Assembly: GCA_020845895.1 (NCBI GenBank)
Contig: JADLEX010000117.1
Coordinates: 1 to 49,508, forward strand
Reading direction: 5' to 3'
Length of the DNA stretch: 49,508 nucleotides
DNA from: Deltaproteobacteria bacterium
Lineage (GTDB): Bacteria > Lernaellota > Lernaellaia > JACKCT01
Shown: positions 15,380 to 28,673 of the stretch, one piece after another
Layout of the letters: the number at the start of each line of letters is the position of its first letter
How positions within the stretch are numbered: the first letter of the stretch is position 1
Translations under genes and position numbers: made by a program
The notes under the pieces: generated by a model
What the model was told of the DNA's origin: nothing
The model's database searches: none
Seen by the model: only the letters and a program-made list of their open reading frames with translations

Positions 15380-16801
15380 TCACGCTTCGTCGAATGCCTT
15401 GGCGGCGACGTCGAACAGGCGCACGGCCTCATTCGAATCAAGGCGAAGCGGGGCGTTGGGAACGGCCCACGGGGCCATAGGTGCGGATCTCGCCGCGACC
15501 GCATCCAGATCCGTCGCCACCCACCCACGTTTGACCGCGCCGCCGCGACCCGCGTCGAGGCAAGTCCCGAGTGGTTTCGCCGCCGCAAAAAGTTCGAACC
15601 ATGAAATCGCCCGGCGAAACGACGCGTTGGTCCACACGGTGTCGCCGCCGATAGACGGCACGGGATCGAGGTACGTGCGTTCGGGCGCTGATGCGGCATG
15701 AAACGCGCCGTCCGCGTGCGTTCGCCCGCCGGAAAAGGCGAGATCCATTCCGAGCAGCACGAGCTGCGACGCGCCGAGAACATCGGCGAGCGCGGTCGCC
15801 GTGGTTCCGACGATTCCCCCCGAAGCCACGCGGCCGATTCGCCACAGATCGTCGAGCGCCTGCGCGACGGGGTCGAGATCGGGCAGGGCGGCCACGCGCG
15901 GCGCGGGCCAGTGTGCGGGCACGTCGGGATGCACCGAGGGCAGATAGACGAGCGGCGGCGCGGCGGTGAAGCCGTCGCACTGGCGGGCGTTCGCGTCGTA
16001 GGGGTCCACCGAGACCGCGAGATCGGCGCGGATCCCCGCCACCTCCAGCACCTCGACCGCCGCATCGACCGCGATGATTCGGACGCGATCACGAATTGCG
16101 CGCAGCTCTTCCACACCGACCGACAGCGACGGGCCCGCGCCGACGATGATCGCGGGCTCGTTTTTCCAGGCGCCGGCTAGCAGGCGGACGGGTGTGTCGG
16201 TGGCGAGGAGCGCGACGTTCGCGCGGAAATTCGCACGGATCTTCGCGCGGGACTCCGCCCCGACGCGACCGTACGTTGCGAGGTGATCGGCGAGGCGACG
16301 CGTCGGGAGCGCGTCCGCATCGCAGAAGCGCAGCTCGGCGTCGTCGGTCAGGATGCTTCCGTTCCCGGCGGCAAAAACCTCGTCCAGCGCCGCAAGCCCG
16401 CAGGCGTCGCCTCGCACGAACTCGACCCGTGGGTCGTCCAGAACCGCGTCGAACATTCCCTCGTCGAGCGCGGCCCGAAAAACGGACGCGTTCACGACGA
16501 CGCCCACGACGCGCCGGGCGTCGAACTCGGCCAGCAGCGCGACGAGTCGATGCCCCGCGCCGACGCCGAACAGCACGACCGGCGAGGCGGGGCGTTCGCC
16601 GAGGCGCGAGCGAATGACATCCCACGCCTCGCGCTGGGGATCGCGCGGGCTGAACAGGGTCACGGCGCGCCCGGCGTCGTCGATCAGCCGGATTGTTCGC
16701 CCGCCGGAAATCCGTATCCACGCCGCGGGCGGCGTCGAGTCCACGACATCGGCCAGAGCGGGCCAACGTCGTCGCAGGATTGCCGGTGCGCGGCTGGGCA
16801 T
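15380..16801 (-). CDS. Maf/DUF115-family (MAF_flag10) protein
   Basis: 473 residues with the hallmark of the motility accessory factor/DUF115 family, AIIVGAGPSLS near residue 220, followed by IAVDAAVEVL, a SVDPYD motif and LLGMDLAFSGGRTHAD. Family members transfer nonulosonic acid sugars to flagellin in several bacteria; archaeal relatives (MptE-like) act on pterins. Residues 1-200 are a less conserved N-terminal region with a Rossmann-like stretch (VVLFGVGAGHRLVAL). The divergent neighbour is a nucleotide-sugar 4,6-dehydratase-like gene, which favours the glycosylation reading. An upstream in-frame ATG at 16876 would add 25 basic residues and is less likely. Convergent with the YchF-like gene, 16 bases apart. 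Confidence 0.78.
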   Translation of the reverse strand: MPSRAPAILRRRWPALADVVDSTPPAAWIRISGGRTIRLIDDAGRAVTLFSPRDPQREAWDVIRSRLGERPASPVVLFGVGAGHRLVALLAEFDARRVVGVVVNASVFRAALDEGMFDAVLDDPRVEFVRGDACGLAALDEVFAAGNGSILTDDAELRFCDADALPTRRLADHLATYGRVGAESRAKIRANFRANVALLATDTPVRLLAGAWKNEPAIIVGAGPSLSVGVEELRAIRDRVRIIAVDAAVEVLEVAGIRADLAVSVDPYDANARQCDGFTAAPPLVYLPSVHPDVPAHWPAPRVAALPDLDPVAQALDDLWRIGRVASGGIVGTTATALADVLGASQLVLLGMDLAFSGGRTHADGAFHAASAPERTYLDPVPSIGGDTVWTNASFRRAISWFELFAAAKPLGTCLDAGRGGAVKRGWVATDLDAVAARSAPMAPWAVPNAPLRLDSNEAVRLFDVAAKAFDEA

Positions 16802-16977
16802 GCGGGCAACATAGCAGAAATGCGGCGTTCGGTATCGGCCGCGCCCGGTTGCCGGGGTGCGGGCGACATTCTCCATCGCCCCCCTGTTCGGGGCGTTCGG
16901 ATTTCCGCATACTGAGTCGCCGATCGGGTTGGGCGGATCGGCGTTTCGAGAATCGAAAACGAATGGGAGTGCGGAAG

Positions 16978-18114
16978 ATGGGGGAAAAGCCGAATCCGTA
17001 CGAGGCGTTCCGGTCCGCTGTCGACGGAAAGAACATCCTCGTCACGGGAGGAACCGGTACCGTCGGCTACGAATTGATCAAGGCGCTGCTCTCGCTTTCA
17101 CCCGGCGTCGTGCGCGTCTTTTCGCGGGACGAACAAAAGCAGTTCTACCTGCGCGAGGAATTCCGCCACTTCGAGAAACAGGTCCGGTTCCTGATCGGCG
17201 ACGTCCGCGATCGACCGCGTCTCGACCGCGCGCTCGAAAATGTCGACATCGTCTTCCACCTCGCCGCACTCAAACACGTCGAGAGCTGCGAGTACAACCC
17301 CTTCGAGGCGATCAAGACCAACATCAACGGCACGCAGCATCTCATCGACGCCGCGTTGATGCACGACATCGAGACGGTCATCTTCACCAGCAGCGACAAG
17401 GCGGTGAATCCGTCGAACGCCATGGGCGCGAGCAAGCTGATGGCCGAAAAGCTCATGGTCGCGGGCAATTTTCACAAAGGTCGTAAACGCACGCGGTTTT
17501 GCTCGGTGCGTTTCGGGAATGTGCTGGGCAGCTCGGGATCGGTCATTCCGACCTTCGTGAATCGCATCCGCCTGGGACTGCCGATCGAGATCACGCACCG
17601 CGACATGACGCGATTCGTCATCAGCTTTCGCGAGGCGAACGAATTGTTGCTCACAACCCTGCGCGACGGCGTCGGCGGCGAGATCTTCGTGCGCAAAATG
17701 CCGGTCGTGCGCATCTTCGATTTGGCCGAGGTTCTGATTGCCGAAACCGCGAAGATGTACGACCTCTCGCCGGTCCCCACGCGCGAGATTGGTGTGCGGG
17801 CGGGCGAAAAGCTCTACGAGGAGCTCGTCACCGAAGAGGAATCGGCCCGCACGTTCGATATCGGAGACTATCTTGTCATCCTGCCGCAACTCGGCGGGGC
17901 GTGGCCCGAACCGGCCGATGCGACGCCGCTTCACATCGGGTCGTATTCCAGCCGTTCCGAAGACGCGGTGAGCGCCGCGGACGTTCTGAAGATCCTCGAG
18001 TCGGACGGCACATTGCGAAATCCCAATCTGCTCCACGGCGTCCGCGCAACGCAGCCGCTCCAGCCCGGGGACCTGTTCGCCGGAGATTTCATGGAGTCCG
18101 TGAATGCCGGGTAG
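16978..18114 (+). CDS. Nucleotide-sugar 4,6-dehydratase-like SDR (CapD/PseB family)
   Basis: Extended short-chain dehydrogenase of 378 residues, similar to UDP-GlcNAc 4,6-dehydratases that begin pseudaminic-acid and bacillosamine-type pathways. The NAD-binding motif is VTGGTGTVG near residue 25; FHLAALKHV and SSDKAVNP follow. The catalytic segment reads SNAMGASKLMAEK, with methionine where most SDRs have tyrosine, giving a Ser-Met-Lys triad as in WbpM-type dehydratases rather than the Tyr form of FlaA1/PseB. There is no membrane domain, unlike WbpM or CapD. The second ATG is chosen because GGGAG lies eight bases before it; a start at 16963 is possible. The 3' end overlaps the next SDR gene by 11 bases. 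Confidence 0.85.
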   Translation: MGEKPNPYEAFRSAVDGKNILVTGGTGTVGYELIKALLSLSPGVVRVFSRDEQKQFYLREEFRHFEKQVRFLIGDVRDRPRLDRALENVDIVFHLAALKHVESCEYNPFEAIKTNINGTQHLIDAALMHDIETVIFTSSDKAVNPSNAMGASKLMAEKLMVAGNFHKGRKRTRFCSVRFGNVLGSSGSVIPTFVNRIRLGLPIEITHRDMTRFVISFREANELLLTTLRDGVGGEIFVRKMPVVRIFDLAEVLIAETAKMYDLSPVPTREIGVRAGEKLYEELVTEEESARTFDIGDYLVILPQLGGAWPEPADATPLHIGSYSSRSEDAVSAADVLKILESDGTLRNPNLLHGVRATQPLQPGDLFAGDFMESVNAG

Positions 18115-19075
18115 TCGCATTCTCGTCACCGGCGGCGCGGGTTTCATCGGCCGGTGGGTGGTGGCCGAATTGCTGGGGCGAACCGAGCCGGAGCACGGGG
18201 TCGTCGTTCTCGACAACCTTTCCAACGGCTCGCCGGAGAATCTGGAGGAGTTCCGCGACCATCCGCGATTCGTCGAGTTCGTCCAGGGCGACATCCGGGA
18301 CACGGCGACGATGCGCGCGTTGTTCGCGCGGCACGAATTCTCCACGGTGTTTCATCTCGCCGCTCGGATCAACGTTCAGGATTCGATCGACAATCCGCGC
18401 GACGTCTTCGACGCCGACGTGGCGGGCACGTTCGAGTTGCTCGAACTGTGCCGCGAATTCAGCGCCCGATTCGTCTTCACCAGCACGTGCATGGTGTACG
18501 ACCGGTGCATTTCGCCGGACGGAATCCGCGAGTCGGACCCGGTGAAACCGGCATCGCCCTACGCCGGCGCCAAGCTCGCGGGCGAAGACTTGGCGCTGTC
18601 GTATTTCCACGCATACGGTTTGCCGGTTGTGGTGCTGCGCCCGTTCAATACCTACGGACCGTTTCAGAAGTCGTCGGGCGAGGGCGGCGTGATCGCCATC
18701 TTTTGCAAAGCCGCCCTCGGTGGGAGCGAACTACGCATCTATGGCGACGGGACGCAGACGCGGGACTTCCTGTACGTCGAGGATTGCGCACGGTTCATCG
18801 TTCTGGCGGGATTCGATCCGAGGGCTGAGGGACGCGTACTGAACGCCGGGAGCGGCGCCGACGTGACGATCAACGAACTTGCGGACCTCGTCTCCGCCGG
18901 CCGTGCGTCGATCGTTCACGTTCCGCATATCCATCCGCAAAGCGAGATCATGAAGCTGCGTTGCGACGCGTCATTCGTGCGTTCGCTGCTCGGGTTCACA
19001 CCGTGCGTGGATTTGGCCGAGGGGATCGTGCGGACATCCGAATGGATCGCCGCACGCCTCGCGAGAACTTCATGA
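18104..19075 (+). CDS. NAD-dependent epimerase/dehydratase (extended SDR)
   Basis: 323-residue nucleotide-sugar epimerase or dehydratase. Visible are VTGGAGFIG at residue 8, the VLDNLSNG turn, FHLAARINV, the catalytic STC serine region and the YAGAK tyrosine-lysine pair, plus RPFNTYGP and the FLYVEDCA motif near the C-terminus, all standard for UDP-glucose 4-epimerase-like enzymes. The exact sugar cannot be assigned. It overlaps the preceding dehydratase by 11 bases and its stop overlaps the next start as ATGA, so the two sugar enzymes and the hybrid kinase are probably one operon. Confidence 0.9.
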   Translation: MPGSRILVTGGAGFIGRWVVAELLGRTEPEHGVVVLDNLSNGSPENLEEFRDHPRFVEFVQGDIRDTATMRALFARHEFSTVFHLAARINVQDSIDNPRDVFDADVAGTFELLELCREFSARFVFTSTCMVYDRCISPDGIRESDPVKPASPYAGAKLAGEDLALSYFHAYGLPVVVLRPFNTYGPFQKSSGEGGVIAIFCKAALGGSELRIYGDGTQTRDFLYVEDCARFIVLAGFDPRAEGRVLNAGSGADVTINELADLVSAGRASIVHVPHIHPQSEIMKLRCDASFVRSLLGFTPCVDLAEGIVRTSEWIAARLARTS

Positions 19076-20388
19076 CGACGGGTCCCCACGCTTCGGCCGG
19101 ATACATGCGCGATTGGGACGAACTGCCGATTCCCCTCGCGGTGACGGACCGTGAGTTTCGCGTCTTGGCGTCGAATGGCGCATGGAAGTCGGCCGGCGTG
19201 ACCCCGGACGGTCTCGTGACGCGATTTCCACTTCCCGGCGAAGGGCAAGCAAAGGGCGGGTATCTCCTTGTCGGTTCCCTCGAGACGAGCGGCGCCGAGG
19301 TGACGCACGCCCAATCGCAATCCGAAAAAATGGCGGCGCTCGCCATGCTCGCGGGCGGGATCGCGCATGAATTCAACAACCTGATGGGCGGGCTTCTCGG
19401 TTACGCGCAGCTCGCGGAAAAAACGGGCGAGACGGCGGACTACCGACGGGCTATCCAGGCCGTCTATCAATCGGCCACGAGGGCCCGGGACGTCGTCGGC
19501 GCGATGCTCGGATTCGTGGGACGACCCATGGATCGGTCGGACCCGACGACATTGACCGAAGTCGTGACGCCGATCCTGACGATGGTCGAGGCCGGGCTGC
19601 GTAACGAGAATATCGAGGTCGACACACGGATCGACGACGCGGGCGAGATCGTGCTCGATGTCGGACGCGCACAGCAGGTGCTGCTCAATCTTGTCATCCA
19701 CGCGCGGGCGCGGTTGCGGGACGCGGGTGGCGGCGTCGTGTCGGTCGCCGCCCGGGTGGAGGGTCGATTCGCCCTGATTCGAGTGGCGGATTCCCTGTCC
19801 GCGGAACCGAACGGCGCGGCGGCGAGAAGCATTTCGCTGGCGACGGGCCGGGCCGTGCTGCGGGAGATCGGCGGGGACATTCGGGAACACCAGGACGGTG
19901 CAAGGCTTTCGTTCGAGATGTTGTGTCCGGTTGGTCCGGCGGGAGACGCGGCGACGATCGATCCCGATCAGGAATTCGCTGGGGAGTCGGAGCCCGGAGG
20001 CCGGATCCTGGTGGTTGACGACGAAAGCATGGTGCGGGATCTTCTGGCGCACGTGCTCGGAATGCACGGGTACGAGACGCAAACAGCCTCGACGGGATTC
20101 TCCGGCGTGGAAAAAGCGCGCCATCTGGCGCCGGAACTCGTGAGTGTGGATGCGCAGATGCCGGGAATGTCGGGAATCGAAACCTGTGCGGCGATTCGGA
20201 AAGAGATTCCGAACTGCGCATTTCTCATGGTGACGGGCGCCGTCGGCGATGAACTGGAACGAATCGCCGGTTCCGCGGGCGGGCAAGGAATCGAAATCAT
20301 CGCCAAACCTTTTGAAATCGAGGCCGTGTTGGGGCATGTGCGGCGGTTGGTCGCGCTCGTCCGGGCGGCTTCGCGGGAGATGTCATGA
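19072..20388 (+). CDS. Hybrid histidine kinase with degenerate ATPase domain and C-terminal receiver
   Basis: 438 residues. A short PAS-like N-terminus is followed by an intact dimerisation H-box, GGIAHEFNNLMGG, with His99. The ATP-binding domain is eroded: the N-box reads VLLNLVIHAR with His210 where the Mg2+-binding asparagine belongs, and the glycine-rich G1 and G2 motifs (DxGxG, GxGLG) are absent, replaced by VADSLSAEPNG and SISLATGRAV. A receiver domain follows (VVDDES, phospho-acceptor Asp360 in VDAQMPGMSG, Lys412 in AKPF) and looks functional. It probably cannot phosphorylate itself and may act as a scaffold, phosphotransfer partner or phosphatase. Start codon overlaps the SDR stop; the end overlaps the next gene (ATGA). 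Confidence 0.85.
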   Translation: MTTGPHASAGYMRDWDELPIPLAVTDREFRVLASNGAWKSAGVTPDGLVTRFPLPGEGQAKGGYLLVGSLETSGAEVTHAQSQSEKMAALAMLAGGIAHEFNNLMGGLLGYAQLAEKTGETADYRRAIQAVYQSATRARDVVGAMLGFVGRPMDRSDPTTLTEVVTPILTMVEAGLRNENIEVDTRIDDAGEIVLDVGRAQQVLLNLVIHARARLRDAGGGVVSVAARVEGRFALIRVADSLSAEPNGAAARSISLATGRAVLREIGGDIREHQDGARLSFEMLCPVGPAGDAATIDPDQEFAGESEPGGRILVVDDESMVRDLLAHVLGMHGYETQTASTGFSGVEKARHLAPELVSVDAQMPGMSGIETCAAIRKEIPNCAFLMVTGAVGDELERIAGSAGGQGIEIIAKPFEIEAVLGHVRRLVALVRAASREMS

Positions 20389-21011
20389 AATTGTACGTGG
20401 ATGATCGTTTGCTGGGCGAGGCCGGCGGGGACACGCCGCTCAATCTCGACACCATTCTGGACCGACTTCAGGATCAGGGGCAGGTTCCCGAGGATCGGAT
20501 CATCATCGCGGTTCAGGTGGACAACCGACGGATCGACCCGGCGGTGGACGAAATCGGGCTCATGTCCGTCCTGCCCAACGACACGAAGATTTTTCGCGTG
20601 GTCACCGAGTCGGTGGCCGTGCTCCTGCGGGACGCGCTGGAGGACGGACGCGCCGCCTTCGAGGTGATCGCGAAGGCCAGCGTCGATGCCGTGAAGAAAT
20701 TGCGGGGCGGCAATATGCCCGATGCCCTGAAATTCTTCGGGAAATTGATGGAACGCATCCAGTCCACGATGGAGTACTGGACCGAACTTCGCGGTCAGCT
20801 CGAAGCCTATAACCCGAAATTTCGCTTCGAACCGGTCGAGGAACTGCTCGAGAAGTTTCGAAAGTGCCTCGGCGCCGCCGTCGGGTTTCAGCAGGACGGG
20901 GACTGGGTCATGCTCGCCGATACCGTGGAATATGAGTTCGTCGAGATTTTCGAGCAGTTTCAGAAACTTGTGGGCGGTTTTGCGAACGAGATAACCGACG
21001 GTTCTGGTTGA
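20385..21011 (+). CDS. Conserved-looking protein of unknown function, coupled to the degenerate kinase
   Basis: 208 residues, soluble, acidic, no signal peptide. The first 75 residues (LYVDDRLLGEAG, IAVQVDNRRIDP, LPNDTKIFRVV) look like a small beta-grasp or ferredoxin-like fold; residues 80-205 are helical and amphipathic, rich in Phe and Glu, with EVIAKASVDAVKKL, MEYWTELRGQLEAYN and EIFEQFQKLVGG. I do not recognise a family. The four-base ATGA overlap with the kinase gene implies production together and a possible protein partnership. The stop is followed by about 100 bases leading to a small FlgM-like gene. Confidence 0.75.
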   Translation: MKLYVDDRLLGEAGGDTPLNLDTILDRLQDQGQVPEDRIIIAVQVDNRRIDPAVDEIGLMSVLPNDTKIFRVVTESVAVLLRDALEDGRAAFEVIAKASVDAVKKLRGGNMPDALKFFGKLMERIQSTMEYWTELRGQLEAYNPKFRFEPVEELLEKFRKCLGAAVGFQQDGDWVMLADTVEYEFVEIFEQFQKLVGGFANEITDGSG

Positions 21012-21114: not shown

Positions 21115-21339
21115 TTGTCCATCAGCGCGGTCAGCATCAACAGCCTCCTGAGCCGGTATCATCGGGCGCTCGCCCGTTCCGAACCGCGTTCAGGGTCGAG
21201 TGGCGCCGCCCAACGGGCCGACCGCGTGGAAATCAGCTCTGAAGGACGCGAAGCCGGGTTGTCGGATCGCATCGGAGAAGCGGCCGTTCGCGCCCTTCGC
21301 GAACAGTCCGTCGACGAACTGATCAAAAAGTCGCGCTGA
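21115..21339 (+). CDS. Small FlgM-like / flagellar-associated protein
   Basis: 74 residues read from a TTG start preceded by GGAAGGA. The N-terminal SINSLLSRYHRALARSE, the basic and disordered middle, and ADRVEISSEGREAG followed by a helical C-terminus ending in VDELIKKSR resemble anti-sigma28 FlgM and the short FlgM-like proteins near deltaproteobacterial flagellar genes. FlgM binds FliA until the hook is complete. The match is by pattern only and the protein is shorter than typical FlgM (about 90-100 residues). A sigma28-like site lies about 40 bases upstream. Confidence 0.45.
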   Translation: MSISAVSINSLLSRYHRALARSEPRSGSSGAAQRADRVEISSEGREAGLSDRIGEAAVRALREQSVDELIKKSR

Positions 21340-21402: not shown

Positions 21403-22101
21403 ATGACCGAACAGACGGAACCCAAACGGGCTCTGGTCGCGGACGACGAGGATGTTTTTTGCAAACTCCTCGCCAAGACCCTGAGTCTCGACGGGTTTCA
21501 GGTCGATACCGCAAACGACGGCATGGAGGCGATCGAGCTGCTCGACCGCCATCGCTACGCCGTCATTTTGACCGACCTGATGATGCCGCGGGCCGGCGGG
21601 CTCGAGGTGCTTCGCGCCGCGCGTCGTACCGACCCCGACGTGGCCGTGATCCTTGTGACGGGGTACGCGTCGCTCGATTCCGCGCTCGCCGCCATCAAGG
21701 AAGGGGCGTACGACTACATCACCAAGCCATTTCAGCTCGAGGAGATTCGGCTGACCGTCTCCAACGCGCTTGAGCGTCGTCGCTTGGTCGATGAAAACAA
21801 GTCGCTGCTCGAAAGCCTCGAAAAAGCCTACCGGCAAATCGACGACCTGATGAAGCGGCAGGTGTCAGCCGCCAGCGAGGTCGACCGCGAACTCGCGGCG
21901 CGGCAGAAGGAGATTTTCGACAAGATCCAAAGCGTGCGCACGCTGCGCGGAGCCACGGCTCCGATTCTCGCGACCGGCGAACTTCAAAAAAAAAATGAGG
22001 CTGAGCTGACCGACAGGCTCGAAGCCGTTTCCTCCACCCTGAATCGACAATTCGTTCGATCGGATGCGGGCTCTTCTCGTTCCAAAGCCGTCGGGTCGTA
22101 A
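21403..22101 (+). CDS. Response regulator with receiver domain and coiled-coil tail
   Basis: 232 residues. Residues 8-125 are a receiver domain: ADDED acidic pocket, phospho-acceptor in LTDLMMPRAGG, VTGYAS and the KPF lysine in YITKPFQ. Residues 125-180 are a coiled coil (ERRRLVDENKSLLESLEKAYRQ), and the Ser/Arg-rich tail has no DNA-binding or enzymatic domain, so output is probably by protein contact. GGGAGG precedes the ATG. Three bases separate it from the HD-GYP gene, suggesting a shared signal. A run of nine A residues at 21987-21995 encodes KKK in the tail. Confidence 0.9.
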   Translation: MTEQTEPKRALVADDEDVFCKLLAKTLSLDGFQVDTANDGMEAIELLDRHRYAVILTDLMMPRAGGLEVLRAARRTDPDVAVILVTGYASLDSALAAIKEGAYDYITKPFQLEEIRLTVSNALERRRLVDENKSLLESLEKAYRQIDDLMKRQVSAASEVDRELAARQKEIFDKIQSVRTLRGATAPILATGELQKKNEAELTDRLEAVSSTLNRQFVRSDAGSSRSKAVGS

Positions 22102-22104
22102 ATC

Positions 22105-23691
22105 ATGAAAATCGATGGGGCCAAACCCCGGTCTCGGATTCTGATTTTGGAAGACGAGGTCCCCATCCGCAATGCGCTCGCGCGCTATCTCGAACAGATC
22201 GGTTATGAAGTCGAGACCGCGGAAAACGGTCGCGTCGGACTTGAAACGCTCCGCGCGGGTCGATTCGATCTGGCGATCTCCGACATCATGATGCCCGACA
22301 TGGGCGGCATCGCGTTTCTCGAAAAAGCCAAGTCGGAGCGCCCCGATCTCGACGTCGTCATGGTGACGGGCTACGGCGACACGTCGATCGCCGTGGACGC
22401 CATGAAAAACGGCGCCTCGGACTTTGTCACGAAACCGTTCCAGTTCGATTACCTCGAAAGCATCGTCCGCAGATTGGTGGAGCGTCGGGAGAGTCGCGCC
22501 GGCCGTCCCCGGGACGTGGATGTCGAGCACCTCGAAGGCCGGCTGCGCGACAAGGTGCGCGAACTGTCGACCCTCTACTCGATCAACGAATCGCTCGACG
22601 AGGTCGAAGGCGTCGAGCCGGTTTTTACGCGCATGGCGCGACTCGCCGCGCAGTCGTGCGACGCCCGATCGGCGTCGGCGTACCTCTGGGAAGCCGATAC
22701 GCGCACGCTTGTGCTGCATTCCGTGTATCCTTCGGGCGCGGTGTCCGCCCGAGTCCCCCGAGTCCGGGCACCGGGCGTGTTCGTCGATCTGATGCGCAAG
22801 CCGCACGATCCCAAACGGTTTTCGGACCCGATGGGTTTGGCGATGCTCGAAACCCTCCTCGTCACTCCGGAGCGTCCGCCGTCCTCCGCCGTTCTCGCTC
22901 CGTTGTTCGTGCGTGGCGAGGCGTTCGGTGTCCTGTGCGTCGAGGGGAAATTCGGCGATGCGTCCTTCGGGGAGCCGGATCTCGGGTTCGTCCGGACGAT
23001 CCTGAAAAAAGCGGCCGTGATGATCGAACGGGCCGCGCTCTACGACACCATTCAGTCAAACCTCGTATCGACGTTGACCTCGCTCGTGCGCACGCTCGAG
23101 GCGAAGGACACCTACACGCGCTTTCACTCCGACCGGGTCACGAACCTCGCGATGCTGGTCGGGCGCGAGATGGGCGTTTCGCAGGCGGACCTCGAAGTTC
23201 TGCGTTTCGCGGGTCTTCTGCACGACATCGGCAAGATCGGCGTGTCCGACGCCATCCTGCAAAAAAAGGGCTCTCTGACGCCGGAGGAATTCGAGGCGAT
23301 CAAGGCGCATCCCATCATCGGGGAGCGCATTCTCGAACCGCTCGGCATGTTGCCCGACGAACGTGCGATCATCCGCCATCATCACGAGCGCTGGGACGGG
23401 CGCGGATATCCCGACGGCCTGGCGGGCAAGGACATCCCGTTTCTGGCGCGGGTGCTCACGCTCGCGGACTCGTACGACGCCATGACCTCCGATCGTGTTT
23501 ATCGCCTCGGGCTCAAGCACGATGTGGCGCTCGGAGAGGTGGTGCGTTACGCGGGCCGTCAATTCGATCCGAACGTCGTCGCGGCGTTCGAGTCGCTCTG
23601 CCGTCGTCACGCGCACGATCTCCTCGAACGGATGAACGCGGGGCTCGACAAGGAATCGATCCTCACGCAGCGGCTTCGCGCGGCGTCATAA
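22105..23691 (+). CDS. Response regulator with GAF and HD-GYP domains (probable c-di-GMP phosphodiesterase)
   Basis: 528 residues in three parts. Receiver, residues 11-125, with EDE, phospho-acceptor in ISDIMMPDMGG and TKPFQ. A GAF-like sensor, about 150-310 (ELSTLYSINESL, VLAPLFVRGEAFGVL). HD-GYP domain, about 325-510, with the metal-binding HDIGKIG and the signature HHERWDGRGYPDGL, both complete, followed by ADSYDAMTSDR. HD-GYP proteins hydrolyse cyclic di-GMP and often control motility and biofilm. It follows a receiver-only gene by three bases, and closes the run of genes that starts with the sugar dehydratase. Confidence 0.93.
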   Translation: MKIDGAKPRSRILILEDEVPIRNALARYLEQIGYEVETAENGRVGLETLRAGRFDLAISDIMMPDMGGIAFLEKAKSERPDLDVVMVTGYGDTSIAVDAMKNGASDFVTKPFQFDYLESIVRRLVERRESRAGRPRDVDVEHLEGRLRDKVRELSTLYSINESLDEVEGVEPVFTRMARLAAQSCDARSASAYLWEADTRTLVLHSVYPSGAVSARVPRVRAPGVFVDLMRKPHDPKRFSDPMGLAMLETLLVTPERPPSSAVLAPLFVRGEAFGVLCVEGKFGDASFGEPDLGFVRTILKKAAVMIERAALYDTIQSNLVSTLTSLVRTLEAKDTYTRFHSDRVTNLAMLVGREMGVSQADLEVLRFAGLLHDIGKIGVSDAILQKKGSLTPEEFEAIKAHPIIGERILEPLGMLPDERAIIRHHHERWDGRGYPDGLAGKDIPFLARVLTLADSYDAMTSDRVYRLGLKHDVALGEVVRYAGRQFDPNVVAAFESLCRRHAHDLLERMNAGLDKESILTQRLRAAS

Positions 23692-24746: not shown

Positions 24747-25136
24747 ATGAAGGAACCATCGGTGTTGATCGTCGAGGACGACGAGGTCGCTGCGGAGATC
24801 CTTCAGCAATTCGTGCATCATCATCGTCCGCAGGCGCGCGTGGAGTGGTGCTGGAACGGATACGAAGCCCTCGTCCGGGTGCAGGATTTCCAGCCCGATC
24901 TGATTCTGCTTGATTACATGATGCCCAAACTCGACGGTCGCGAGTTCATCTCGACCCTCAGGACGCTCGACACCTGCCGGGGTTGCCACATCGCCGTGAT
25001 CTCGGCGTACGTCGATCGGATCAACGAGAAGGGATTTCTCGATCTTGGCGCGCAGGAAGTGCTGTCGAAACCGGTTAACTCGTCGCAGATCGCGGCGTTG
25101 CTCGACCGCGTCGCCGCCGAACGCAAGCCGACCTGA
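24747..25136 (+). CDS. Single-domain response regulator
   Basis: 129 residues forming one receiver domain: VEDDE acidic pocket, phospho-acceptor in LLDYMMPKLDG, Ser/Thr position in VISAYVD and the lysine in LSKPV. No output domain. GAGGGG lies a few bases before the ATG. Its stop is three bases from the stop of the convergent seven-PAS histidine kinase, which makes that kinase a natural candidate partner since it has no receiver of its own. Confidence 0.92.
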   Translation: MKEPSVLIVEDDEVAAEILQQFVHHHRPQARVEWCWNGYEALVRVQDFQPDLILLDYMMPKLDGREFISTLRTLDTCRGCHIAVISAYVDRINEKGFLDLGAQEVLSKPVNSSQIAALLDRVAAERKPT

Positions 25137-25139
25137 CGT

Positions 25140-28100
25140 TCAGTTTTCCGCGCCGCCGTTGTTCGGCGAATCCAGGTCGATCTCGAAGGCGAATCGGCTG
25201 CCGCGGCCCTCTTCGCTTCGGGCGGTGATCGCCCCGCCCATGAGTTCCACGAACTCCCGCGTGATCGCGAGTCCGAGCCCGGTGCCCTGGTACGCGCGCG
25301 TGGTGGAGTCGTCGGCCTGGTAGAACGCGTCGAAGATGTGCGGCAGGTGTTCCGCGGCGATGCCGATTCCCGTGTCGACGATCTCGAAACGCATGCGCTC
25401 TTCGCCGGACTCCGCGCGGCTCACGGCAAGGGTCACGCCGCCCGTTCCCGTGAATTTGATGGCGTTGCCGATCAGGTTGTTCAAAACCAGCTCCAGCATC
25501 ACGGGATCGCCTTCGACATCTTCCGGAACGCCCGGCCCGAAGTCGAGGCTGAACCCCAACGACTTGGCCGACGCCTGCGGTTCGTACCTCGCGAAGATAT
25601 CCTCGACGAGACCGCGCAGGGGAAACCGCGTCGGCTCGGGCGTGTACTTCCCGGCTTCGATTTTCGAGAGTTTCAGCAGATTGTTCACGATCAACAGGAG
25701 TGACTGAGCGGCCCGGCGGATGAGCGTCGTGTAGTGACTCCGCTTCTCGACGTTCATCCCGGGTTCGAGTTCCAACACCTCGACCAGGCCGATTACGGCG
25801 TTGAGCGGCGTGCGCAGTTCGTGACTCATGTTCGCGAGGAATCGGCCCTTGAGCAGGTCGGCTTCGCGCGCCTTTGCGAACGCGCTTCGCAGATCTTCGA
25901 GCGTCGCTCTTCGCTCGGTGTCGTCCTGGGCGATGACGATTCTCGCGACGGGTTCTCCGTCCGCCCCGAGGACGTTGGAGATCGTGGTGAGCGACGGAAA
26001 TGCGCCGTCACCCTCCCGGACGCGACCGAGTTCCCCGGTATGGGCTCCCGTGTCGTTCACCACGTGGAGGAACGGTAGGACTTCGTCGTTCCATTGATCG
26101 GTCGTGTGCAGGCGACGGATATTCACGTCGGCCAGTGCTCCCGGTTCGAATCCGTGCATCCGGTCCCACGCGGGATTCGAGAACGAGATCCGTCCGTCGA
26201 GCCCGACGACGGCGATGCCGTGCAACGACTGCTCGACCGCGCGCTGAAAGGTCCGCAGGTCGGCTTCGCGCGATTTGGTTTCGCGGATATCCGTCAGCAG
26301 AATGACCACGCCCGTCACCGTATCGTTGTTCTTCATCGGCGCCATGCGCGCCAGGTACCAGCCCCCGGTTCCGTCCCGCATGATAGCGCGCAGTTCGAGT
26401 TCGCGCGCGACGCCGTTCTCAAACGTTTCGCGGAACGCGGCGATCGCGGCCGGCCGGTCCGCCTCATCGATATATCGTTCGATCGACTGCCCGAGAACAT
26501 CGGTCGTGCTCGCGAGTTCGCCCGCGTTGACGAACTGGAGACGCATTTCGCCGTCCGCGATGACGACATGATCGGGAGAATTTTCGACGAGCGAACGGAA
26601 CCGGGTTTCGCTCTCCGCTTGCGCGATGCGGGCGTTTCGTTCGGCCGTCACGTCCGTGGAGATGATCATGACGCGCGCCTGTCCGTCCTGCGAGAACGGG
26701 ATGAAGCGGCTGAGCCACGACTGTTCGACATCGCCGATTCGAGTTTCGATTTCGAAGTGCGCGGCGACGCCGGATTTCGCGCTCGCCAGGGCGGCATCGA
26801 GAATGGGCCGATCCCCCGGGCGGGTGAAAACGCCGACGGGCTTTCCCAAAACGTCCTCGATTTTCGCGTCGGGCGCCGCAACGCGGTTGAGGTAGATGTA
26901 CCGGTCGTTCTCGTCGAGGACGCCGATGAAATCGGGAAGATTTTCGATGAGGGCGCGCAGAAACGATTCGGACCGAGCGATGCGGGAGAGCGATTCCCTC
27001 GAATCGGTGATGTTGCGGGCGGAAGCCAGGACGGTCTGGACGCGCCCGGCGGAGTCGATCTCGGGCATCAACAGCCAGTCGATCCAGATCCCCGACGGGA
27101 GCCGGAATTCGACGCGCTGCGTGTCGCCTTTTCGGAACGTTGCGCGAATCGCATCTTCCCAGACGTTCACGAGGTCGGCGGGAAATCCCAGATCCGAGTG
27201 CGTCCTCCCAATGAAAAGTCCCGGCGCGATTCCCGTTTGCTCCTCGACGACGGAGTTCACGTAGAGGTGTCGGCATTCCCGGTCGAAACGCATGATCGTG
27301 TCGCGGGAATTTTCCGCGAGCGTGCGAAAACGTTCCTCGGACGCGCGCAGGGCGTCCTCGGCTTTTTTCACCGCGGAAACATCCCGCGAGATGGAAATCG
27401 TCCCGACCATTTTTCCATGGCTGTCGTGCCACGGAAGCACCGTCGTGGCGAGCCAGACGGTCTCTTTTCCTCCGAATTGTCCCCGCTCGATCGCGTCGAT
27501 CTTGGCGTCGCCGGTTTGCAGGATCAGTTCTTCGTTCTTCCGGATGCGCGCCGCCGTCGGGGCGGGCACGAAATCGGCGTCGGTTCGCCCGAGCGCTTCA
27601 TGGCCGTCCTCGATTCCCAGCCAATGGGCCTGCGCGGAATTGACGCGCACGTATCGGCCATGCACATCCTTGAAGGAGATCGCGAACGGCGCGTTGTCGA
27701 GCAGCGCCTTCACGAGGTTCTGCTCGTGGCGAAGGTGGCGAGTCGACTCGTGATGCCGCTCGATTTCCTGGCGGAGCGTCTCGTTGGCGCCCGTCAGTTC
27801 GTCGGTCCGTCGCCGAACCTCGGCTTCAAGGTTGTCGAGCGTCTCCTGAAGACGCGCCCGCGCAAGAACCATGTCGTTCACGTCTCGGATCACGACGAAC
27901 GACCAGTCCGCATGCATGAACGGTGCACGCCGTCCCGAGATTTCCACATGGAACAGCGTTCCGTCCTTCCGCTTCGCGCGCGTAATGCAAGGGCGGGGCG
28001 AGTCTGCCATGGCTTTCGCGCGCAGGTCTTCGTGAACGTCCGCGGGAAAATACCGTAACGGATCCGTGCCGATCGCTTCTTTGGCGGCGTAGCCGAACAT

Positions 28101-28673
28101 CGCGCACAGGGCGGGATTCACTTCGAGGATGCGACCGTCCTTGAAGATGCACATGCCCTCGAACAGAGCGCTCGTCACGCCGCGATACCGCGCGGCCCAC
28201 AGATCGCAGGCGCGGCGCAGTTCCTCGAGCGGCTCTTCATTGTCCAGCAGCCAGAATTCGGATTCTGGCGGCACCTGGGGCAGGAGGATCGGACGGGCGA
28301 CGACGGTGACGTGCGATCCATGGTCCCGCGCAAGCCTCCGCCGGGTCGAAGAATCGGCCTGCTCCGCCGGCGAGGATTCCGCGCCATCGAAACGCAGCAA
28401 CTCCGCCTTGGGTGTGCCGACCAGCGCGTTGCCCGAAAGCGCTCCAAGCATTCGTGCGGCGGCCGAGTTCGCGCGGACACACGTCCCCGATCGAATTTCG
28501 AGCACGCCCTCGTCCAGCGCCTCGACGAGGGACCACAGGGTCTGCGAGTCGAAGCTCTGCGCCTTGATCCGCTCGTCGCGCTGTTCCAGCCGCTGCTCGA
28601 GTTCTCGGATACGCCCGCGAAGTTCCTCGAATTTCGCGAAGACTGTTTGATCCGCGTCTGGATCTGAATTCAT
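25140..28673 (-). CDS. Soluble multi-PAS sensor histidine kinase
   Basis: 1177 residues, no membrane span. After an N-terminal coiled coil (10-40) I count seven PAS-like units: about 45-150, 160-270, 320-435, 445-560, 568-680, 690-800 and 805-925, with a coiled coil at 270-325. Units 2-7 carry recognisable PAS starts such as ERFRTLAENSRD and TRFRSLVENSPD. The kinase core is complete: HisKA with FLANMSHELRTPLN (His951), N-box LVLNNLIGNAIKF, DTGIGIA and GTGLGLAI. No receiver follows, so it should pass phosphate to a separate partner, perhaps the adjacent receiver. PAS number suggests integration of several cytosolic signals such as redox or ligands; no haem or flavin residue could be picked out with confidence. 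Confidence 0.93.
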   Translation of the reverse strand: MNSDPDADQTVFAKFEELRGRIRELEQRLEQRDERIKAQSFDSQTLWSLVEALDEGVLEIRSGTCVRANSAAARMLGALSGNALVGTPKAELLRFDGAESSPAEQADSSTRRRLARDHGSHVTVVARPILLPQVPPESEFWLLDNEEPLEELRRACDLWAARYRGVTSALFEGMCIFKDGRILEVNPALCAMFGYAAKEAIGTDPLRYFPADVHEDLRAKAMADSPRPCITRAKRKDGTLFHVEISGRRAPFMHADWSFVVIRDVNDMVLARARLQETLDNLEAEVRRRTDELTGANETLRQEIERHHESTRHLRHEQNLVKALLDNAPFAISFKDVHGRYVRVNSAQAHWLGIEDGHEALGRTDADFVPAPTAARIRKNEELILQTGDAKIDAIERGQFGGKETVWLATTVLPWHDSHGKMVGTISISRDVSAVKKAEDALRASEERFRTLAENSRDTIMRFDRECRHLYVNSVVEEQTGIAPGLFIGRTHSDLGFPADLVNVWEDAIRATFRKGDTQRVEFRLPSGIWIDWLLMPEIDSAGRVQTVLASARNITDSRESLSRIARSESFLRALIENLPDFIGVLDENDRYIYLNRVAAPDAKIEDVLGKPVGVFTRPGDRPILDAALASAKSGVAAHFEIETRIGDVEQSWLSRFIPFSQDGQARVMIISTDVTAERNARIAQAESETRFRSLVENSPDHVVIADGEMRLQFVNAGELASTTDVLGQSIERYIDEADRPAAIAAFRETFENGVARELELRAIMRDGTGGWYLARMAPMKNNDTVTGVVILLTDIRETKSREADLRTFQRAVEQSLHGIAVVGLDGRISFSNPAWDRMHGFEPGALADVNIRRLHTTDQWNDEVLPFLHVVNDTGAHTGELGRVREGDGAFPSLTTISNVLGADGEPVARIVIAQDDTERRATLEDLRSAFAKAREADLLKGRFLANMSHELRTPLNAVIGLVEVLELEPGMNVEKRSHYTTLIRRAAQSLLLIVNNLLKLSKIEAGKYTPEPTRFPLRGLVEDIFARYEPQASAKSLGFSLDFGPGVPEDVEGDPVMLELVLNNLIGNAIKFTGTGGVTLAVSRAESGEERMRFEIVDTGIGIAAEHLPHIFDAFYQADDSTTRAYQGTGLGLAITREFVELMGGAITARSEEGRGSRFAFEIDLDSPNNGGAEN

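Follow-up and report, generated by a model that had tools for sequence, protein, structure and literature searches.

A 438-residue protein encoded at positions 19072–20388 (+ strand) of the window, the 49,508-nucleotide stretch of DNA analysed here, raises the question of what a hybrid histidine kinase might do once its ATP site has been lost. An earlier note on this DNA described it as a pseudokinase, unable to autophosphorylate, that may act as a phosphorelay scaffold or an allosteric regulator of another kinase. Dead hybrid histidine kinases are already known, and what this locus adds is that intact and eroded forms share one conserved operon slot. The reading that we favour, with moderate confidence, is that the protein is an autokinase-dead hybrid kinase kept as a phosphate-handling partner of flagellum-linked receivers.

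Loss of the ATP site

The open reading frame, its translation and its Pfam matches showed the domain order of a hybrid kinase. The N-terminal region (residues 14–68, 19111–19275) is PAS-like, as judged by alignment and by the strands in its AlphaFold model, but has no Pfam match to PAS and is shortened by a gap of about 50 residues relative to two orthologues from the same family (genomes G001 and G002). It is followed by a dimerization and histidine phosphotransfer (DHp) domain (residues 74–150, 19291–19521), modelled as two long helices and carrying the motif H99-E100-F-N-N103. This domain is of the HisKA type, as PF00512 matched residues 92–146 at 27.7 bits (cut-off 26.9). The C-terminal receiver (residues 309–430, 19996–20361; PF00072 at residues 312–422, 66.7 bits) retains all its catalytic residues: D316, D317, D360 (20149–20151), T388 and K412 (20305–20307). 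The earlier note had placed His99, Asp360 and Lys412 correctly.

The catalytic and ATP-binding (CA) domain between them (residues 151–290, 19522–19941) is eroded. The N-box Asn is replaced by His (H210, 19699–19701), and the sequence D240-S-L-S-A stands where the DxGxG of the G1 box is expected, so that the Asp survives without either glycine. The G2 box is absent, with all three of its glycines lost. H210 and the loss of the glycine motifs are as the earlier note had read them. D240 is the G1 Asp, which we take to be the adenine contact. The protein also has no ATP lid, as only 11 residues separate G1 from G2, compared with 24–30 in the other 51 HisKA proteins that this genome encodes. The earlier note had recorded neither this deletion, nor the survival of D240, nor the shortening of the PAS region. 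The set of N, G1 and G2 boxes plus lid that marks an active HATPase_c domain is therefore broken, and Pfam gave no HATPase_c match to the protein at E ≤ 0.1. As the N-box, the glycines and the lid are all missing, Mg-ATP binding is not expected, and from these three separate kinds of loss the protein should not be able to autophosphorylate, as had been proposed.

A frameshift or sequencing error does not account for the loss, since neither of the two other forward frames of the region contained ATPase motifs and the frame runs on into an intact receiver. Nor is broad variation of the ATP site the norm in this organism, as shown by a control on all 52 HisKA places of the genome (E ≤ 0.001; 30 loci, 21 further stretches and the window gene, none dropped). 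Seven residues were scored after alignment to an intact orthologue: the N-box Asn, the G1 Asp, two G1 glycines and three G2 glycines. All seven were kept at 43 places, six at 6, five at 1, two at 1 and one at 1, this last and lowest being the window protein. The third G2 glycine was retained at 50 of the 52 places and the second G1 glycine at 49. A second eroded HisKA protein with two of the seven residues lies elsewhere in the same genome (L199:1375–3312, − strand; G000:C130; C130:16590); it has a receiver, and its HATPase_c match scored just 17.7 bits.

A conserved operon with intact and eroded kinases

The kinase gene lies between genes for sugar-modifying enzymes and genes for receivers, and the earlier note's view that it is read in the same operon as the former holds. 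Upstream are a PseB-like UDP-GlcNAc 4,6-dehydratase (16978–18114, +; PF02719, 322 bits; 321.8 bits against TIGR03589, under its cut-off of 407.75) and an NAD-dependent sugar epimerase/dehydratase (18104–19075, +; PF01370), both conserved in 6/6 genomes. Four-base ATGA overlaps join the epimerase stop to the kinase start, and the kinase stop to the start of the next gene, which encodes a 208-residue protein (20385–21011, +). A 74-residue ORF (21115–21339, +) with a VxISxEG motif comes next; it has no Pfam match, a homologous ORF occupies the same place in 6/6 genomes, and we presume that it resembles FlgM-type proteins. The operon continues with a receiver with a C-terminal extension (REC1; 21403–22101, +; PF00072, 97.9 bits), in which no output domain was found, and a REC-GAF-HD-GYP protein (22105–23691, +; PF00072, PF01590, PF13487). 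The receiver at 21403 has its acidic pocket in 6/6 genomes, the phospho-Asp of the in-operon receivers is present in all six, and the HDIGK and GxGYP motifs of the HD-GYP protein are likewise intact in 6/6, which makes it a likely c-di-GMP phosphodiesterase.

In a comparison of seven genomes of the phylum, with the operon marked by the 208-residue protein after the kinase, the whole gene order (dehydratase, epimerase, kinase, 208-residue protein, small ORF, REC, REC-GAF-HD-GYP) was found in six. FliD was found in exactly these six genomes, and the seventh, G003, lacked both. In G004, the genes for flagellin and FliD come immediately upstream of the operon, and in both G002 and G004 it is followed downstream by a sigma-54 regulator that has a receiver. 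The best match to this G002 regulator, which is of the NtrC type, sits close to the operon in G001, G002, G004 and G006, and in G000 and G005 on a different contig. Divergent from the operon in the window is an MptE-like gene (15380–16876, −; PF01973, 105.8 bits), which matched the flagellin-modification model FlagModPseD at 30.7 bits, far under its cut-off, and a gene of this kind also adjoins the G002 operon. In G001, an additional stretch of about 2.6 kb follows the 208-residue gene. The G002 operon (L109) has frame breaks in the epimerase, REC and HD-GYP genes, perhaps from sequencing errors; the kinase gene there reads as a single unbroken frame.

The 208-residue protein, conserved in 6/6 genomes, was modelled (pLDDT 86.7) as a beta-rich N-terminal part and a four-helix bundle. 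It had no Pfam or NCBIfam match and no Foldseek match at E ≤ 0.001, the list holding only general four-helix bundles. Its family, which is without a name, was matched in 58 of 386 genomes, those of the phylum included. Among the 30 loci listed, six were the phylum's own and 24 (L120–L143) lay outside it; a rescan at E ≤ 1e-8 recovered the protein in 20 of these 24. Five of the 24 adjoin an MptE-like gene, and a kinase match was found near only one, as a short receiver ORF. Across the 24 outside loci checked, linkage of the 208-residue gene to the kinase was thus observed only within the phylum. Since none of 78 kinase relatives in named genomes has the 208-residue neighbour, these were counted as general hybrid kinases and left out of the orthologue set. 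No entry returned by our searches of open-access literature named this operon or protein.

The earlier note had asked whether orthologues share the loss, and took intact ones as a refutation of its reading, in favour of recent decay. Two of the five orthologues, those of G001 and G002, are indeed intact, with 7/7 ATP-site residues, HATPase_c matches of 81.9 and 76.1 bits, and a C-terminal receiver. The other three, from another family (G004, G005 and G006), have no C-terminal receiver; they keep 4, 5 and 4 of the seven residues and score 41.4, 52.8 and 57.7 bits. The second G1 glycine and the third G2 glycine are gone from each of them. As part of what they lack is also missing from the window protein, its loss cannot be put down solely to a single recent accident. 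With these HATPase_c scores they may still bind ATP, and we describe them as partly eroded rather than dead; the distance from G1 to G2 is normal in them (27–31). The simplest history, given intact proteins in G001 and G002 and partial erosion in G004–G006, would be an intact ancestor followed by at least two erosions, complete in the window lineage and partial in the other family. Residues H99, E100, N102 and N103 are invariant in 6/6 orthologues. The G004 (L110:8653–9828) and G006 (L112:9103–10701) proteins have N-terminal receivers, that of G004 being partly matched and degenerate by eye.

Uneven constraint and the possibility of decay

The main rival to a retained role is that the gene is decaying: the role would have been lost in this lineage, and the reading frame would persist through translational coupling between the epimerase and the 208-residue protein. 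We consider this unlikely, although several observations fit it, beginning with the intact orthologues in two genomes of the same family. The flanking enzymes of these genomes and the window are near-equidistant (66–68% identity between the window and G001 or G002, 69–72% between G001 and G002; by enzyme, 66–69% for the PseB-like protein and 66–72% for the epimerase). The kinase of the window is more diverged, which points to acceleration over the whole protein in the window lineage. Against G001 and G002, its identity is 85% in helix alpha-1 (residues 92–117), 57% in the DHp domain, 35% in the N-terminal half of the CA domain, 25 and 20% in its C-terminal half, and 45 and 49% in the receiver. 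The corresponding values between G001 and G002 are 100, 87, 60, 62 and 67%. The acceleration is thus strongest in the half that binds ATP and weakest near the phospho-His.

The shortened PAS region also fits decay, as does codon composition. The second codon positions have a GC content of 0.55 in the PAS region and of 0.50–0.51 in the CA domain, compared with 0.46 in DHp, 0.44 in the receiver and 0.33–0.46 in five neighbouring genes. This somewhat raised GC hints mildly that constraint has relaxed in these two parts. Moreover, long open frames come cheaply in a window of 64% GC, where an antisense ORF of 473 codons overlaps the kinase gene. Against decay, H99-E100-N103, helix alpha-1 and every catalytic residue of the receiver survive, and the gene has no stop or frameshift. 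In addition, the three relatives from the other family also combine eroded ATP sites with a kept H-box. That the exact state of the window protein is found in one genome only counts, however, against the reading of a retained role.

Known kinase-dead systems and a proposed phosphate-handling role

The AlphaFold model of the window protein, built on a six-sequence alignment, had a mean pLDDT of 76 and a pTM of 0.48, a value that leaves the domain arrangement uncertain. The CA part was still modelled as folded, as a sheet with helices and without a lid. Foldseek matched the model to many histidine kinases, to DivL (4q20) and to 4fpp, a 'Bacterial phosphotransferase' which we take to be ChpT (TM-score by target 0.58, rmsd 5.6, 217 columns). 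The matches from VIA-align were receivers, which filled the list and made it uninformative on the DHp-CA part. By sequence, the closest solved structures for DHp-CA were 5idj (the best, E 1.4e-11), presumably CckA, and ZraS. The best NCBIfam matches were CckA models, far under their cut-offs, and matches to solved RetS were not significant (E 0.36 for 6dk7, 0.4 for 6dk8).

In its motifs, the window protein is of the RetS kind, with the H-box kept, the G-boxes lost and a functional-looking fused receiver. RetS of Pseudomonas aeruginosa likewise has a HisKA domain with an intact H-box, a degenerate HATPase without G-boxes and a C-terminal receiver, and is reported to show transmitter phosphatase activity while being unable to autophosphorylate (PMC5992135). 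It differs in having two receivers, while the window protein instead belongs to a flagellar and HD-GYP operon. PhyT of Sphingomonas, which also has a degenerate ATPase, is described as relaying phosphate between receivers (PMC5898713); the His that is live in PhyT is retained here. PhyT has an HRxxN motif and a predicted membrane anchor, in contrast to the HisKA domain and fused receiver of the window protein. ChpT of Caulobacter is, like Spo0B, a dimeric DHp protein, and it also carries an ATPase-like domain, one that makes no use of ATP. Its lid is replaced, and its crystals were reported without bound ATP or ADP (PMC3433190). Unlike the window protein, it has no fused receiver and belongs to PF10090, which did not match the window protein at E ≤ 0.1 and stayed below its cut-off of 22.9 bits in the orthologues from G004 (20.0) and G006 (21.7). 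For RetS, PhyT and ChpT, the precedents come with activity assays, and by analogy they may extend to the window protein. CckA, by contrast, is described as an active kinase, the hybrid kinase of the CtrA phosphorelay (PMC3433190).

Taken with these precedents, the sequence suggests how the protein might work. Its ancestor would have been a PAS-HisKA-HATPase-REC hybrid kinase that has since lost Mg-ATP binding and autophosphorylation. His99, together with E100 and N103, would serve as a dimeric phosphotransferase or as a transmitter phosphatase on receivers. The likeliest partners would be its own C-terminal receiver, the receiver at 21403 and the REC-GAF-HD-GYP protein at 22105. Any phosphate that enters would be supplied by another kinase, and the output would be c-di-GMP breakdown tied to flagellum assembly or flagellin glycosylation. 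Action as a phosphatase or in phosphotransfer is suggested by the kept HExxN motif, and phosphate handling on the in-operon receivers is favoured by the phospho-Asp residues and HD-GYP motifs intact in all six genomes and by the RetS and PhyT precedents. The regulatory role suggested in the earlier note can thus be refined, as the HExxN motif and receiver point to a phosphotransferase or phosphatase rather than a mere scaffold, although sequence cannot separate these roles. Work on CrdS by Willett and Kirby reported that in HisKA proteins the T/N residue is needed only for phosphatase activity and the E/D residue only for kinase activity (PMC3510030). The retention of E100 therefore counts against phosphate handling of this kind, and would fit a recent loss or trans phosphorylation by a partner kinase.

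Such a partner is the core of a second alternative, which we regard as doubtful and place behind decay: the window protein would inhibit or tune an intact histidine kinase, or His99 would be phosphorylated in trans by the CA domain of that kinase within a heterodimer. RetS is reported to act on GacS in three ways (PMC5992135), and DivL of Caulobacter, which has the kinase fold, to sense DivK~P without kinase or phosphatase activity (PMC4211667). DivL, however, has Tyr in place of the His, and the presence of H99 sets the window protein apart from that kind. E100, required for kinase chemistry in the CrdS work, would be explained. An intact PAS kinase is encoded at G000:C66, close to the G000 gene that corresponds to the NtrC-type regulator (L195), and is a candidate by position only. 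Against this, we saw no sign of a pair or heterodimer, and the receivers within the operon are simpler partners. That the protein has remained active as an autokinase, using an ATP site of an unusual kind, is very improbable, even though D240 is kept and the model still shows a folded CA domain, since the N-box Asn, all G1 and G2 glycines, the lid and any HATPase_c match are missing, and since RetS without G-boxes is reported unable to autophosphorylate (PMC5992135) and lid-replaced ChpT is reported without nucleotide (PMC3433190).

Returning to phosphate handling on the in-operon receivers, a fuller scenario is more speculative. On at least two occasions, a flagellum-linked hybrid kinase at one operon slot would have lost its kinase activity and become a handler of phosphate. 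The outcome in the window lineage would be a phosphotransferase with a fused receiver, which either takes phosphate from another kinase or is trans-phosphorylated as the substrate half of a heterodimer, and which controls the HD-GYP c-di-GMP enzyme together with flagellin glycosylation. We give this extended version little weight as a whole. Of dead kinases like RetS, PhyT and ChpT, it is usually just the finished form that is available for study. At this locus, related genomes carry intact and eroded versions in one operon slot, so that the conversion of a kinase into a phosphotransferase or phosphatase could be tested directly. A further suggestion from the operon is that, in this little-known phylum, the synthesis of flagellin sugars and the breakdown of c-di-GMP are linked under the control of phosphate.

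Considered as a direct test of a relay, the occurrence of Hpt domains followed no clear pattern, with four places in the window's own genome and none in two of the seven genomes, G003 and G006, the latter despite its operon. Just downstream of the operon in the window, a single receiver (24747–25136, +) and a multi-PAS histidine kinase with a HATPase_c match (25140–28673, −) converge, 4 bases apart.
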